This document shows, one piece after another, positions 71-39,920 of a stretch of 64,000 nt of DNA. This stretch comes from Alishewanella agri BL06. GTDB taxonomy: Bacteria; Pseudomonadota; Gammaproteobacteria; Enterobacterales; Alteromonadaceae. A model generated the notes under the pieces. It saw only the letters and a program-made list of their open reading frames with translations, did not search any database and was not told where the DNA came from. Location of the stretch: the NCBI RefSeq assembly GCF_000272005.1, contig NZ_AKKU01000012.1:124001-188000 (forward strand), given 5' to 3'. A program made the position numbers and the translations under genes. Every line of letters begins with the position of its first letter. Position 1 is the stretch's first letter.

Positions 71-1786
71 TTAATCGCTTTCCAGCCGGGTATCCAGTTG
101 TACTGTGGTAATGCGGTTACCGACAATTTCATCCACAGTTAATTTTATCGCGCCGATAATCACCTCAGCTCCAGCCACAACCTCAGTGCTCAGTTTTTCC
201 CGGCAATACTCATCCAATGTTAGCTCAGCATCCTGCCCGGTAAAATCCAGGTTATAACACCAAGCCAGATCACTAAACCGACTCGCCCCTTTTAACCTTA
301 GCGTAGTGGGTAATTCAGGGTTAATAAAACCTGGCTCAGAAAAAATTTGCTCCAGCATCGGTTTATAATCTTTTTTCAGCACCACAAACAGATGATCACC
401 AGCCTCTAGCACCGTTGAACCTCGCGGCGGAATAATTTGCTCCTGCCGGGTAATCATGGCAACCACCACCCCCTCAGGTAAGGCCATCCGGGACAAGCGG
501 CGATTGATCGCTCTCGATCCTGCTGCCAGGGTGTACTCGACAATTTCGGCGTCAACATCCCCTAAGGCGGTAATTTCCAGTGTTGCCGCTGGCTTGGCTG
601 TTACCGGTTCAATCAAATCCAACTTTTTAGCAACCCAAGCCAGAGTGGAGCCTTGTAAGGTTGCGGAAATTAACACCACAAAAAACACCGCGTTGAAAAT
701 AAGTTCCGCACCCGGCAAGCCATACATTAGTGGAAAAATCGCCAGGATAATCGGTACTGAGCCACGCAGCCCAACCCAGGACACCAGAGTCATCTGCCGT
801 AGTGAAAAGCCAAACCATTTCAGCACCGGCAATACCGCCAATGGTCGGGCCACGAAGATTAATACAGCGGCGATCAGTAACCCTTGCCACCAAACTTCCA
901 GCAGTGAGCTGGGGTTAATCAGTAACCCTAACATCACGAACATCATAATCTGGCTTAGCCAGGCCAAACCATCATGGAACAGAAAGGTCGTTTTCTGAAA
1001 CGCAAATTTGTTATTTCCAATCATCACACCACAGATAAAGATGGCCAGGAAGCCACTGCCACCGAGATTAGCCGCCAGACCAAAGGATAGTAAACCGGCA
1101 GCCGCTACCAACACCGGATATAAGCCGGTTGCCTGCAGTTGGATCCGGTGCAGCAGTTGCAGCGTCAGATAACCAATCAATAAGCCGACTAAGGCGCCGC
1201 CACCCATCTGTAAAAAGAACAGCTGCAATACGCCAACACCGGGTTTTAAGCCATTTACCAGCACTTCCAGCAATGTGACTGTTAGGAAAATTGCCATCGG
1301 GTCGTTCGAGGCACTCTCAATTTCCAGAGTCGACTTCAAGCGTTCGTTCAGATTAATACCGGCATTACGTAACAGTGAGAATACCGCTGCGGCATCAGTT
1401 GAACCGACGATAGCGCCGATCAGCAAACCTTCCATTAAGCTGATTGACAGAATATAACTGGCCGCGACGCCGGTGAGCAGCGCTGTCACCATAACCCCCA
1501 AGGTTGCCAGAATCGACGCGGGTTTCCACACCTTTTTCACCGCACTGAGGGGAGTTTGTAAACCACCGTCGAACAGAATAAAAGCCAGTGCTATGGTACC
1601 GACCGCATGCGCGAACTGCGGGTTGTTAAAGGCTAAACGACCAAACCCTTCCTCTCCGGCTAACATCCCGACTAATAAAAACAGCACCAGCATCGGTAAA
1701 CCCAACCGGGCTGACAGCTTACTGGACAGAATACCCAGTAGAATCAGCACAGAGGCAACGAGAATAAGCTGGTCAATCAAAAACAT
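71..1786 (-). CDS. nhaP2: K+/H+ antiporter, NhaP2/CvrA type
   Basis: Inner-membrane cation/proton antiporter of the CPA1 family; the family exchanges K+ (or Na+) for H+ and helps with osmotic and pH balance. The first 390 or so residues are a run of about 12 hydrophobic segments, including the conserved stretch with STDAAAVFSLL near residue 130 and the ESASNDPMA motif near 155-165, which carries the ion-binding acidic residues. The cytoplasmic tail (about residues 400-490) looks like a TrkA-C/RCK_C regulatory domain, followed by a short C-terminal domain. The 571 aa length is normal for NhaP2. It lies 11 bases downstream of the serine hydrolase gene on the same strand, so the two are probably cotranscribed. 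Family assignment is firm; the ion preference is not readable from sequence. Confidence 0.9.
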   Translation of the reverse strand: MFLIDQLILVASVLILLGILSSKLSARLGLPMLVLFLLVGMLAGEEGFGRLAFNNPQFAHAVGTIALAFILFDGGLQTPLSAVKKVWKPASILATLGVMVTALLTGVAASYILSISLMEGLLIGAIVGSTDAAAVFSLLRNAGINLNERLKSTLEIESASNDPMAIFLTVTLLEVLVNGLKPGVGVLQLFFLQMGGGALVGLLIGYLTLQLLHRIQLQATGLYPVLVAAAGLLSFGLAANLGGSGFLAIFICGVMIGNNKFAFQKTTFLFHDGLAWLSQIMMFVMLGLLINPSSLLEVWWQGLLIAAVLIFVARPLAVLPVLKWFGFSLRQMTLVSWVGLRGSVPIILAIFPLMYGLPGAELIFNAVFFVVLISATLQGSTLAWVAKKLDLIEPVTAKPAATLEITALGDVDAEIVEYTLAAGSRAINRRLSRMALPEGVVVAMITRQEQIIPPRGSTVLEAGDHLFVVLKKDYKPMLEQIFSEPGFINPELPTTLRLKGASRFSDLAWCYNLDFTGQDAELTLDEYCREKLSTEVVAGAEVIIGAIKLTVDEIVGNRITTVQLDTRLESD

Positions 1787-4892: not shown

Positions 4893-6311
4893 ATGCAACA
4901 ACTGGTCTCGCAATTACCTTCCCGCCACCGTCTGTTGATTCTGTTGGTTTCCGTGCTGCTAGCCATTTTACTACTGATGCCGTCCGAACACGCCTCGGCA
5001 TCGCGCAATACTGAGCGCCCGGCAGATGAGATTGCTACCGGATTAGACCTTGCCGCCATCGATAATCTTGTCAGTGACGAATTACGTGACGCTGTTGCCG
5101 CAGAACTGTCAAACACCGCAACGGATAGCGACCTAACCAATACAACAGCCGATATGCCAGAACCCACATCACAACAACCAGGCGCTGAACCGGGGTTAAA
5201 CTGGGTAACCGTCTCTGTGCAATCCGGCGATATTTTATCGGGTCTGTTCCGCAAGGCCGGAGTAAGCCAGCAAACCATGCAACAGATCCTGGATCTGGGC
5301 CGGCCAACCCGCACCCTAACCCGGTTATTTCCTGGCGAGCAAATTGAGTTTGGTCTGGATCAGCAAGGCGAGCTGCAGCAATTACGCTATGCCATTAACC
5401 GCCTGGAAACCTTGGAAGTCTCACGTCAGAGCGATGGCGGTTTTAGTGCCGCTACCAGTAAAAAAACGGTTGAGTTGCAGCAACAATTCGCCGCCGGTGA
5501 AATCCGCAGTAGTTTCTGGCATGCCGGTCTGGCTGCCGGCTTAACGGAGAGCCAGATCATGCAACTGGCCGGTGTCTTTGGCTGGGATATCGATTTTGCG
5601 CTGGATTTACGCGCCGGTGATAGCTTCGCCGTATTATTTAATGCCGAATATCTGGAAGGCGAGCCATTGGGTAACGGTACTATTCTGGCGGCAGAATTTA
5701 CCAATCAGGGCGAGGTATATCAAGCCATCCTGCACTCTGACGGCAACTACTATAAACCGAATGGTCAGAGCATGCGTCAGGCTTTTTTGCGCGCCCCGGT
5801 AAGTTTTCAGTACGTCAGTTCTAATTTTAATCCAAGGCGCCTGCACCCGGTATTAGGTACAGTGCGGGCCCATAATGGCACTGACTATGTGGCACCTGTT
5901 GGTACCCCTATTATGGCAGCCGGTGATGGTCGGGTAACACATTCCGCTTTTAATAATCTGAATGGTCATTATGTCTTTATTCAGCATGCGAATAATGTCA
6001 CTACCAAGTACCTGCATTTATCCCGCCGCGACGTTAAAGTCGGGCAAAGGGTAAAGCAAGGCCAAACTATAGGCCGGTTGGGAGCTACGGGCCGGGTTAC
6101 CGGTGCCCATTTGCATTATGAATTTATCGTGGCTGGCGTACATCGTAATCCACGTACCGTGAAACTGCCGCAGGCAACACCACTAACCGGCCAGCAAAAA
6201 CAGCAGTTTAGTGTCACTGCCAGCACCCTACTCAGAGAATTACAGCAACAACAGCAGCAGTATCTGGCGGCCCGCCAAAACCCAACTGATTCTGAACAGG
6301 CGGCGCCCTGA
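4893..6311 (+). CDS. M23 peptidoglycan DD-metalloendopeptidase (MepM/OapA-like)
   Basis: Membrane-anchored zinc endopeptidase, likely cutting peptide crosslinks in the cell wall to allow growth. An N-terminal membrane segment (HRLLILLVSVLLAILLLMP) is followed by an acidic linker, an OapA/LysM-like region with VSVQSGDILSGLFRKAGVSQ, and an M23 domain near the C terminus with the zinc motifs HNGTDYVAP and HLHYEF and the turn VGTPIMAAGDG. Both ligand motifs are intact, so it should be active. The frame is open to an ATG at 4806, but the start at 4893 (MQQLVSQLPS) matches relatives better; neither has a strong ribosome site. It is divergent from tyrS, an arrangement common in this group. Confidence 0.85.
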   Translation: MQQLVSQLPSRHRLLILLVSVLLAILLLMPSEHASASRNTERPADEIATGLDLAAIDNLVSDELRDAVAAELSNTATDSDLTNTTADMPEPTSQQPGAEPGLNWVTVSVQSGDILSGLFRKAGVSQQTMQQILDLGRPTRTLTRLFPGEQIEFGLDQQGELQQLRYAINRLETLEVSRQSDGGFSAATSKKTVELQQQFAAGEIRSSFWHAGLAAGLTESQIMQLAGVFGWDIDFALDLRAGDSFAVLFNAEYLEGEPLGNGTILAAEFTNQGEVYQAILHSDGNYYKPNGQSMRQAFLRAPVSFQYVSSNFNPRRLHPVLGTVRAHNGTDYVAPVGTPIMAAGDGRVTHSAFNNLNGHYVFIQHANNVTTKYLHLSRRDVKVGQRVKQGQTIGRLGATGRVTGAHLHYEFIVAGVHRNPRTVKLPQATPLTGQQKQQFSVTASTLLRELQQQQQQYLAARQNPTDSEQAAP

Positions 6312-13307: not shown

Positions 13308-13456
13308 GGGGTTTCCGGGTTAGAAAGTCGCGCTAAGTAATGCATTTATAGCATATTTCAGCAGAGCGGAGGAATAGGTGGTGATGTTGAAGCTAATCTT
13401 AGTACTCTTACTAAATATTAAGCTCCAGTTTTGGCAGAGACAGGATTTGAGCATCC

Positions 13457-13575
13457 GGCGGCTAAACGCGCCGTACAACTTTGCCGGGGCACGCCGTGAA
13501 CCCATCCATGGGGGCTCCTCTTTCGCATCCATGCGAAAGACGTCCCCGGACAAAGTGTACTATGCATTTACCGCC
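13457..13575 (-). repeat. Structured repeat, copy A (two inner hairpins)
   Basis: A 119-base element, read on the minus strand. Its outer ends pair: GGCGGTAAATGC with GCGTTTAGCCGCC (one bulge, G-T pairs). Just inside, GTACACTTTGTCCGGGGACG pairs with CGTGCCCCGGCAAAGTTGTAC apart from single-base bulges. Between them are two hairpins with GGA in the loop: 13520-13539 (CTTTCGC-ATGGAT-GCGAAAG) and 13498-13517 (GAGCCC...GGGTTC around CCATGGAT). The element is followed by CCGGATGC, as copy B is. It lies upstream of pqiA, reading toward it. No protein is plausible here. I do not recognise a named family. Confidence 0.8.
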
Positions 13576-13671
13576 TAGTTCGACAAATGCTGCAACCGCA
13601 ATCTTCAACCTAAGCGCGCTGAATATCATACATAACGTATAAAAAACTATTGGTGGCATGATCGTGAACGA

Positions 13672-13860
13672 GGTGGTAAGCATTCCGTGCACTTTGTAAG
13701 GGAATGTATTTTTCAGGGATGAAAAATGACACAAATTTGCCGGGAGCAAATTTGAACAGCTTTAGCTGGCCCGTAGGGCAAACTTCAGGATGAAGTTTGT
13801 AACCGTACAGGGAGGTATTCACAGCGTGTCCCGTCAAAGTTGTACGGAATGATTACCGCC
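13672..13860 (+). repeat. Structured repeat, copy B (enlarged set of inner hairpins)
   Basis: A 189-base element on the plus strand with the same ends as copy A. GGTGGTAAGCATTCC pairs with GGAATGATTACCGCC (13 standard pairs, one G-T, one mismatch in 15), and inside it GTGCACTTTGTAAGGGA pairs with TCCCGTCAAAGTTGTAC. The interior holds more hairpins than copy A: 13708-13727 (8-bp stem, GGGA loop), 13732-13754 (9-bp stem, CGGGA loop), 13757-13768 (CAGC-TTTA-GCTG), 13769-13779 (GCCC-GTA-GGGC) and 13779-13799 (9-bp stem, GGA loop), then an ACAGGGAGG segment. The two copies differ in stem sequence while keeping pairing, so the structure appears to be under selection, probably as RNA. Confidence 0.8.
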
Positions 13861-13959
13861 GGATGCACAAATCTAGATATGTCACGGAGATCGGAGCAAA
13901 TTGGTCGAACCTAACGGAGGTTCTCACCTCCCGCTGGTTTAGCATGTCGTTTAAACGCA

Positions 13960-13990
13960 AAAACCCGCTGAGGTTTTCACCTTAGCGGGT
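13960..13990 (-). terminator. Terminator after the tRNA operon
   Basis: On the minus strand: ACCCGCTAAGG-TGAAAA-CCTCAGCGGGT followed by TTTTGCG. It lies just past the second tRNA-Arg and would end the tRNA-Ser/Arg/Arg transcript. Confidence 0.85.
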
Positions 13991-14459: not shown

Positions 14460-14660
14460 TTACTCACCCTCGCTGAAATTACCGCCGTTAGTATCTTTTT
14501 CGGCCTGGATCCGCATATAAATTTCTTCGCGGTGTACAGAAATGTCTTTGGGTGCGTTGACACCGATTCGTACCTGATTACCTTTAACACCCAAAACGGT
14601 TACGGTAACTTCATCACCGATCATCAGGGTTTCACCCACTCGACGCGTCAGAATAAGCAT
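14460..14660 (-). CDS. csrA: Carbon storage regulator CsrA
   Basis: Small dimeric RNA-binding protein that represses or stabilises mRNAs by binding GGA motifs in loops and near ribosome sites. It governs carbon flux, motility and biofilm switching. The sequence [18 protein letters not shown] with Arg44-containing VHREEIY near the C-terminal helix is textbook CsrA; both RNA-contact regions (residues 2-7 and 40-47) are intact. It is 66 aa, slightly longer than E. coli CsrA (61) because of a tail (NGGNFSEGE). It follows alaS by 124 bases and precedes tRNA-Ser, as in many relatives. The GGA-hairpin repeats lie less than 1 kb away. Confidence 0.97.
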
Positions 14661-39543: not shown

Positions 39544-39586
39544 CTGGGGACGACCCCAGTGCATTCTCTCATCCGGGGACGGCCCC
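39544..39586 (+). promoter_or_regulatory. Guanidine-II riboswitch (mini-ykkC)
   Basis: Two small hairpins with the family's ACGR loops: CTGGGG-ACGA-CCCCAG at 39544-39559 and GGGG-ACGG-CCCC at 39575-39586, 15 bases apart. The second hairpin ends just before the AGAGG ribosome site of the next gene. This two-hairpin ACGR arrangement binds guanidinium in described guanidine-II riboswitches, and the gene that follows is the matching exporter. Confidence 0.93.
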
Positions 39587-39605
39587 ATAACAAGAGGTTA
39601 GTGTT

Positions 39606-39920
39606 ATGGCATGGCTTATTTTATTGCTCGCCGGCTTATTGGAAATCGTCTGGGCTGTAGGCCTGAAATATACGGCTGGTTTTACTAAACCCTGGCCCAG
39701 CATTATTACGCTAAGCGCTATGATCGCCAGTTTTGTATTACTGGGGCACGCCTTGCGTACCCTGCCACTCGGAGTAGCCTACTCAGTCTGGGTTGGTATC
39801 GGGGTTGTCGGTACGGTAGTCTTTGGTGCCTGGCTGTTTGACGAAAGCTTAAGTTTGTTGAAAATTGTCAGTATTCTGCTGATCTTGCTGGGGATTGTCG
39901 GGCTAAAGTTGACTAGCTGA
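39606..39920 (+). CDS. gdx: Guanidinium exporter, SMR family (Gdx/SugE)
   Basis: Small four-helix exporter of the SMR family that moves guanidinium out in exchange for protons; formerly called SugE. The central Glu13 is in LLEIVWAVGLKYTAGF, and the Gdx-type W-x-x-G-L-K-Y context is present. The 104 aa length is typical. The guanidine-II riboswitch 20 bases upstream strongly supports guanidinium over quaternary ammonium as substrate. The gene is single and convergent with the next. Confidence 0.95.
   Translation: MAWLILLLAGLLEIVWAVGLKYTAGFTKPWPSIITLSAMIASFVLLGHALRTLPLGVAYSVWVGIGVVGTVVFGAWLFDESLSLLKIVSILLILLGIVGLKLTS

Follow-up and report, generated by a model that had tools for sequence, protein, structure and literature searches.

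Two inverted repeat units lie at 13457..13860 of the window, the 64,000-nucleotide stretch of the Alishewanella agri BL06 genome analyzed here, and by core and structure they are almost certainly members of a YPAL-like repeat family. Selection acts on one strand of these units, the strand on which their hairpins display GGA loops, and, going by this loop motif and the pairing of the sites, the unit RNA likely binds CsrA. We consider it fairly probable that the units represent a YPAL-like mobile repeat whose RNA would bind a CsrA dimer, with either a titrating or a cis-acting effect. What looks like a scattered “junk” repeat may, in other words, be a CsrA-binding RNA.

The composite element and its site

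Each unit forms a three-way junction composed of a long, variable outer stem, a first hairpin (H1), a short linker, a second hairpin (H2), and a UUCAC-type bulge. Matches were scored with a model, R1, built from an alignment of 14 core units of the A. agri BL06 genome. The two copies reported in the initial annotation, A on the minus and B on the plus strand, are confirmed in the sequence and as inverted repeats, and they belong to a composite element with the following features and neighboring gene.

13451..13866, no strand: composite element of two divergent units (inverted repeats I1/I2; terminal inverted repeat GCATCCGGCGG/CCGCCGGATGC)
13457..13575, minus: unit A, two-hairpin form (R1 match 13472-13560, 109.9 bits; one of R1's own seed sequences)
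13520..13539, minus: H1 of unit A, loop AUGGAU at 13527-13532 (fold and alignment)
13501..13512, minus: H2 of unit A, loop AUGGAU at 13504-13509 (family alignment; the single-copy MFE fold prefers another pairing here)
13576..13671, no strand: spacer between the divergent units A and B (homologous spacer in locus L012)
13672..13860, plus: unit B, long form, six hairpins in the interior (R1 match 13754-13846, 39 bits; outside the R1 seed; fold)
13708..13727, plus: H1 of unit B, loop AGGGAU (fold)
13732..13754, plus: extra hairpin of unit B, GGGA in the loop (stem differs yet pairs in the long copy of L012)
13757..13779, plus: two small hairpins of unit B, loops without GGA (sequence)
13779..13799, plus: extra hairpin of unit B, loop CAGGAUG (weak CsrB-model match over it, 10.4 bits)
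13806..13817, plus: H2 of unit B, loop AGGGAG (sequence)
14462..14660, minus: csrA, context outside the element (NCBIfam PRK01712, E 3.6e-35)

The terminal inverted repeat of the composite continues imperfectly to 13444 and 13873, and a near-identical segment common to loci L014 and L015 starts and stops at the same end motif. The outer limits are nevertheless provisional, since the flanks beyond them are partly alike in some pairs. The outer stems of A and B pair despite their different sequences, as the annotation had noted, and both units fold as RNA far better than shuffled sequences: the MFE is -66.2 kcal/mol for unit A (13452-13578, minus; z -4.98) and -83.0 kcal/mol for unit B (13670-13866, plus; z -7.82), with 0 of 200 shuffles folding as well in either case. 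The interior is indeed variable: A has two hairpins, whereas B has hairpins at these two positions and a further four, of which two have a GGA loop and two do not. The claim that the region holds no ORF was nearly right: seven ORFs of at least 40 aa overlap it, all of them short, the longest (95 aa, TTG start, 13462-13749, minus) running through unit A on that unit's own strand. We provisionally take all seven for chance.

The element sits between pqiA and a tRNA-Arg/tRNA-Arg/tRNA-Ser cluster, and csrA, which goes unmentioned in the initial annotation, as does the constancy of the ANGGAN loops, lies 0.6 kb away, just beyond the tRNAs. Among 18 genomes with pqiA and the tRNAs in view, our own included, a unit occupies this site in 3 and is absent from 15, so the insertion is lineage specific and its proximity to csrA is not conserved; on these grounds, we rejected a functional link with the neighboring gene. 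Units also occur near pqiA in two more genomes (L223 and L225), with no tRNA in view there. On the minus strand, 3' of the tRNA-Arg genes, a terminator-like hairpin can be seen by eye at 13924-13980; it went unflagged in the consensus scan.

Covariation, loops, and strand of selection

Across the family, outer-stem arms match within a copy and differ between copies (median, 28 aligned positions; 118 units), and the selection on folding proposed from the two window copies is borne out by family-wide covariation in the seed and two larger sets. In the R1 seed, 92.5% of cells are paired, versus 77.5% when shuffled and at most 48.9% when slid, and 16 of the 32 pairs change on both sides; in the larger sets fitted to R1, 88.6% and 89.6% of cells are paired. 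This covariation, the absence of which would have counted against the annotation, is strong. Further pair types, used as a covariation measure, were no more numerous in the seed than in shuffles (291 of 500 shuffles scored as high), and their excess was not clear in A3, one of the larger sets (64 of 500). An additional covarying contact extends H2, being C-G (139), G-A (33), U-A (7), or U-G (3) in 182 of the 185 units scored (of 210) and something else in 3. It explains the R that the annotation had written in its block TTCACRGCGTG, a covarying position. In the R1 structure, support is poor for some closing pairs next to the junction, and the H2 extension fits better.

The H1 stems differ widely while their loops stay ANGGAN. 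Among 210 unique hits, 162 of 169 six-base H1 loops and 207 of 208 six-base H2 loops have this form, the constancy of H2 being partly selected at the many loci for which H2, and not H1, belonged to the pattern used to fetch sequences. T or G predominates at position 2, and T or C at position 6. H1 loops of other length occur in 41 of the 210 units, and GGA is still found in 35 of the 40 printed. A GGA-loop hairpin is present on the sense strand of 207 of the 210 units, compared with 13 on the complementary strand and 18 in shuffled units, and an unguided hairpin scan recovered GGA in 129 of the 152 best six-base-loop hairpins and in 30 of 41 distinct arms. Long units carry additional GGA hairpins.

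Outer-stem mismatches on the GGA strand include 107 G-U versus 24 A-C among the 118 of 210 units that were usable; the 92 units dropped had fewer than two hairpins (46), no H2 (11), or a weak outer stem (20) or were duplicates (15). A smaller test on 96 units gave 71 G-U versus 21 A-C. The outer stems also hold 65 A-G or G-A mismatches, and mismatches in the H1 and H2 stems (G-U to A-C, 8:1 and 1:1) are too few for a strand test. The excess of G-U over A-C in the outer stems is strong evidence that the GGA strand is the one under selection, which is what an RNA would show, and it speaks against a DNA cruciform with symmetric strands. G-T would likewise be favored over A-C if the sense strand formed a hairpin as single-stranded DNA.

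Named relatives and distribution

The initial annotation knew of no named family with this layout. The family does have names, since RU-2 shares its core and Ysr224 matches units from Sodalis and Pectobacterium. In the available text, RU-2 (YPAL, the Yersinia palindromic sequence), printed over 168 nt, has the same core, the outer stem, the H1 loop AAGGAU, GAGCC, the H2 UACAUGGAUGUA, and UUUACGGCGU, and the printed sequence folds alike, with a core of H1, GAGCC, H2, and TT(T/C)ACGGCGT within an outer stem (PMC2759123). Available passages of a review describe YPAL as a MITE-like intergenic repeat that inserts at or close to dyad symmetry and generates target duplications of 3 to 26 bp (PMC2229807). 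As with YPAL/RU-2, our units have many copies per genome and vary in presence at syntenic sites (3 of 18 genomes, above). Repeats abutting the element within its provisional limits measure 0 to 1 nt at four composite pairs, the flanks of some pairs being themselves alike; the annotation likewise saw no target duplication. In contrast to YPAL, the units here are often divergent pairs, with other outer arms (by an unsystematic comparison), and some have up to four extra hairpins. The suggestion of a family of small mobile or regulatory RNAs holds insofar as this is a repeat family with a selected fold, probably mobile and probably regulatory; it is one already described in Yersinia and present in Rfam as Ysr224, which, by the annotation's own reckoning, counts in part against it.

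Rfam searches returned no match for the window copies, including none to Ysr224 (RF02770; gathering score, 70). Their relatives do reach that threshold, with 82.9 bits for Sodalis (L121) and 73.3 bits for Pectobacterium (L138), these being 2 of 18 loci scanned; both units match R1 as well. Units of L009 and L010 match Ysr224 weakly (29.4, 20.8, and 19.0 bits). The Ysr224 model represents the complementary strand, on which the loops appear as UCC, and the expressed RNA that Rfam records comes from the strand opposite to the GGA strand.

Comparable in layout is the TwoAYGGAY RNA (RF01731), likewise a long outer stem with two hairpins and AYGGAY loops, placed by Rfam in clan CL00106 with CsrB and, in available passages, predicted to bind CsrA (PMC4333381). 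Its core sequence differs, and no unit reaches 43 bits (best, 25.4, in L010); a whole-genome search of our own genome gave none at E 0.1. Beside some units, we observe a second repeat with two GGA-loop hairpins that resembles TwoAYGGAY at 30 to 34 bits, below 43, a likeness that is weak given the empty whole-genome search.

L011:415-542 and 736-863 (-), 4980-5107 (-); L012:418-545 (+); L013:1449-1576 (+): TwoAYGGAY-like repeat

GGA-loop hairpins are also found in the CsrB/CsrC/RsmX-Z small RNAs, which are stand-alone genes with a promoter and a terminator. One CsrB-like candidate of our genome, at C25:239596-239888 (minus; locus L211 of G000), scores 25.1 bits, below threshold, contains many repeats of the GCAGGATG kind, and is probably the host's own Csr small RNA. 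RsmU of Xanthomonas, a 3'-UTR, mRNA-borne RNA that binds RsmA/CsrA (PMC7694677), is comparable by its available description, which presents it as one locus conserved in one genus and not as a repeat. A link to integrons or sRNA-Xcc1 was dropped, with none found among the papers listed, no Xcc1 match in Rfam, and attC judged by eye.

Further copies, which the annotation had proposed to look for, are plentiful. R1 has 19 matches in the A. agri BL06 genome and matches all 31 sampled genomes of the genus (10 to 60 per genome), 40 of 60 genomes searched as relatives (our own included), and 46 of 274 sampled gammaproteobacterial genomes. At the phylum level, 17 of 200 genomes match, and all 17 are our own or belong to the same family or class. 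A conserved-block search also gave further copies, many as divergent pairs, and an exact-pattern scan of named genomes yielded at least 118 loci, of which 115 have an R1 match; the pattern loci listed include Microbulbifer, Stenotrophomonas, Xanthomonas, Marinobacter, Shewanella, Halomonas, Arenimonas, and Pectobacterium. Among 36 neighboring unit pairs in named loci, 24 are divergent, 8 tandem, and 4 convergent. Two units of L009 (773-857 and 991-1075, plus) have the usual core, but their outer stem (GATATTGC...GCAATATC) is another one altogether, as though the arms evolved as a module apart from the core.

Carriage by phages was rejected: 18 viral contigs fit a short pattern, matches that look like chance because none of the 18 scored with R1, and phage records gave no match at E 0.01. 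Plasmid carriage was rejected as well. Only 2 of 72,556 plasmid records match, both of them megabase Proteus records, and they do so by the extra-hairpin module of unit B and not by the core; the Proteus locus L244 has no R1 match, and a second plasmid query gave none. This module (13731-13793) matches L244:1501-1565 at 84.6%, occurs at four places in each of the two Proteus records, in L244 interrupts an Rhs-core-like reading frame (by eye), and may itself be a separate mobile piece. In Escherichia coli, 5 of 5,426 genomes have one place each, four of them on plasmids; L245, L246, and L247, from wastewater E. coli plasmids and one chromosome, have their one place close to disrupted IS genes and a gene for an iron-containing alcohol dehydrogenase.

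Proposed CsrA binding and competing explanations

ANGGAN is the loop form of CsrA/RsmE sites, for which the selected CsrA consensus is RUACARGGAUGU and the RsmE consensus is A/UCANGGANGU/A; both are matched by the H2 form UACAGGGAUGUA. The units also have the layout of CsrA sites, with two GGA-loop hairpins each; in available passages, Gardner and Eldai describe such sites as GGA-loop hairpins that usually come in pairs because CsrA is a homodimer (PMC4333381). We envisage that a unit would be transcribed as part of a neighboring transcript and that its RNA would fold into the three-way junction, in which H1 and H2 could present their ANGGAN loops to a CsrA homodimer. CsrA would then be captured, by the units acting as a distributed sponge or by a site acting in cis on the carrier mRNA.

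Copy number favors titration, and conserved operon positions favor a cis role where they occur. When only the best match per genome is counted, one and the same operon accounts for 24 of 29 congeneric loci, all of which fall within two of its intercistronic gaps. This operon has carboxyltransferase-like, enoyl-CoA-hydratase-family, biotin-carboxylase-type, HMG-CoA lyase, and 3-oxoacid CoA-transferase genes, and we take it to be the leucine/isovalerate (liu) operon. A sense unit is present at 19 of these 24 loci, and at 15 of the 19 the core ends 61 to 72 nt before the aligned start of the next gene; all three units at the operon in our own genome are sense.

Several observations count against CsrA binding. 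Only an antisense unit was found at the other 5 operon loci, the Ysr224 RNA is the opposite strand, and elsewhere there is no sense bias toward flanking genes, with 18 sense versus 27 antisense units in same-direction contexts, as judged by crude ORF calls (among 161 units, there was overlap with an ORF call in 54 and an edge position in 19). The antisense unit of a divergent pair can, in addition, pair with the sense unit, in competition with the hairpins. One 98%-complete genome (G254) carries the repeat by R1, and no csrA was found there. Among the genomes listed, csrA was found in 42 of 46 carriers (hand tally), and a renewed search of the four others gave no match over the cutoff; this co-occurrence tests little, because most genomes of the class have csrA (235 of 274). 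In the mostly open-access literature searched, we found no published CsrA link for YPAL or Ysr224, and a printed link elsewhere is possible; the one paper naming both CsrA and Ysr224 has, in its available text, CsrA passages that do not concern Ysr224. Six core strings of the family were absent from the same literature.

The antisense-only operon copies would be better explained by a REP-like stability element of the YPAL type, whose hairpins only protect or terminate mRNAs and whose loops are fixed by descent, CsrA being irrelevant. Such a role would also suit the median distance of 78 nt to the next downstream ORF among the 88 units outside ORF calls, and the review passages report YPAL elements expressed with upstream genes (“co-translated”) that might influence RNA stability (PMC2229807). 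We regard it as unlikely, however, since a stabilizer has no need of GGA in both loops, which keep ANGGAN over varying H1 stems and change mainly at positions 2 and 6.

CsrA requires a loop of this kind, ANGGAN with positions 2 and 6 variable, and the pattern counts against recognition of the hairpins as single-stranded DNA by a transposase, as at REP/RAYT or IS200 ends, with the constant loops as contacts. This second explanation draws on the repeated, palindromic units, the predominance of divergent pairs (24 of 36), and the exact end motifs shared by two composite copies; the extra hairpins of long units carry GGA too, and we judge it improbable.

CsrB-type small RNAs encoded as autonomous genes, each served by a promoter and a terminator as such RNAs are described in available passages (PMC11882849), would account for several GGA hairpins per unit and for the listing of Ysr224 as an expressed small RNA in the available text (PMC9029176), but are very hard to credit, as consensus scans found no promoter-like site in three elements, no sigma-70-like site in the spacer 13576..13671, and only two terminator-like matches in the three elements (both antisense, at about chance frequency), the CsrB model (RF00018) reaches 10.4 bits over part of unit B versus a gathering score of 71, Ysr224 is modeled on the opposite strand, and the genome has the separate, below-threshold CsrB-like candidate.

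If the loops do bind CsrA, some of the repetitive DNA of many Gammaproteobacteria would serve as a dispersed sink for CsrA and would bring new genes under CsrA control. This would give a function to YPAL and Ysr224, tie them to TwoAYGGAY, and provide a case, open to testing, in which a mobile element spreads the sites of a global RNA-binding protein. We only tentatively entertain the broader version of the CsrA-binding repeat, a class-wide mobile element living by its RNA, in which each insertion would give the receiving transcript a two-site dock, transposition would rewire or titrate the global carbon regulator, and the catabolic-operon copies would be kept genus-wide as regulatory parts.

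Elsewhere in the window, a Guanidine-II riboswitch is found at 39544-39587 (plus; 39.5 bits), just upstream of an ATG near 39606.
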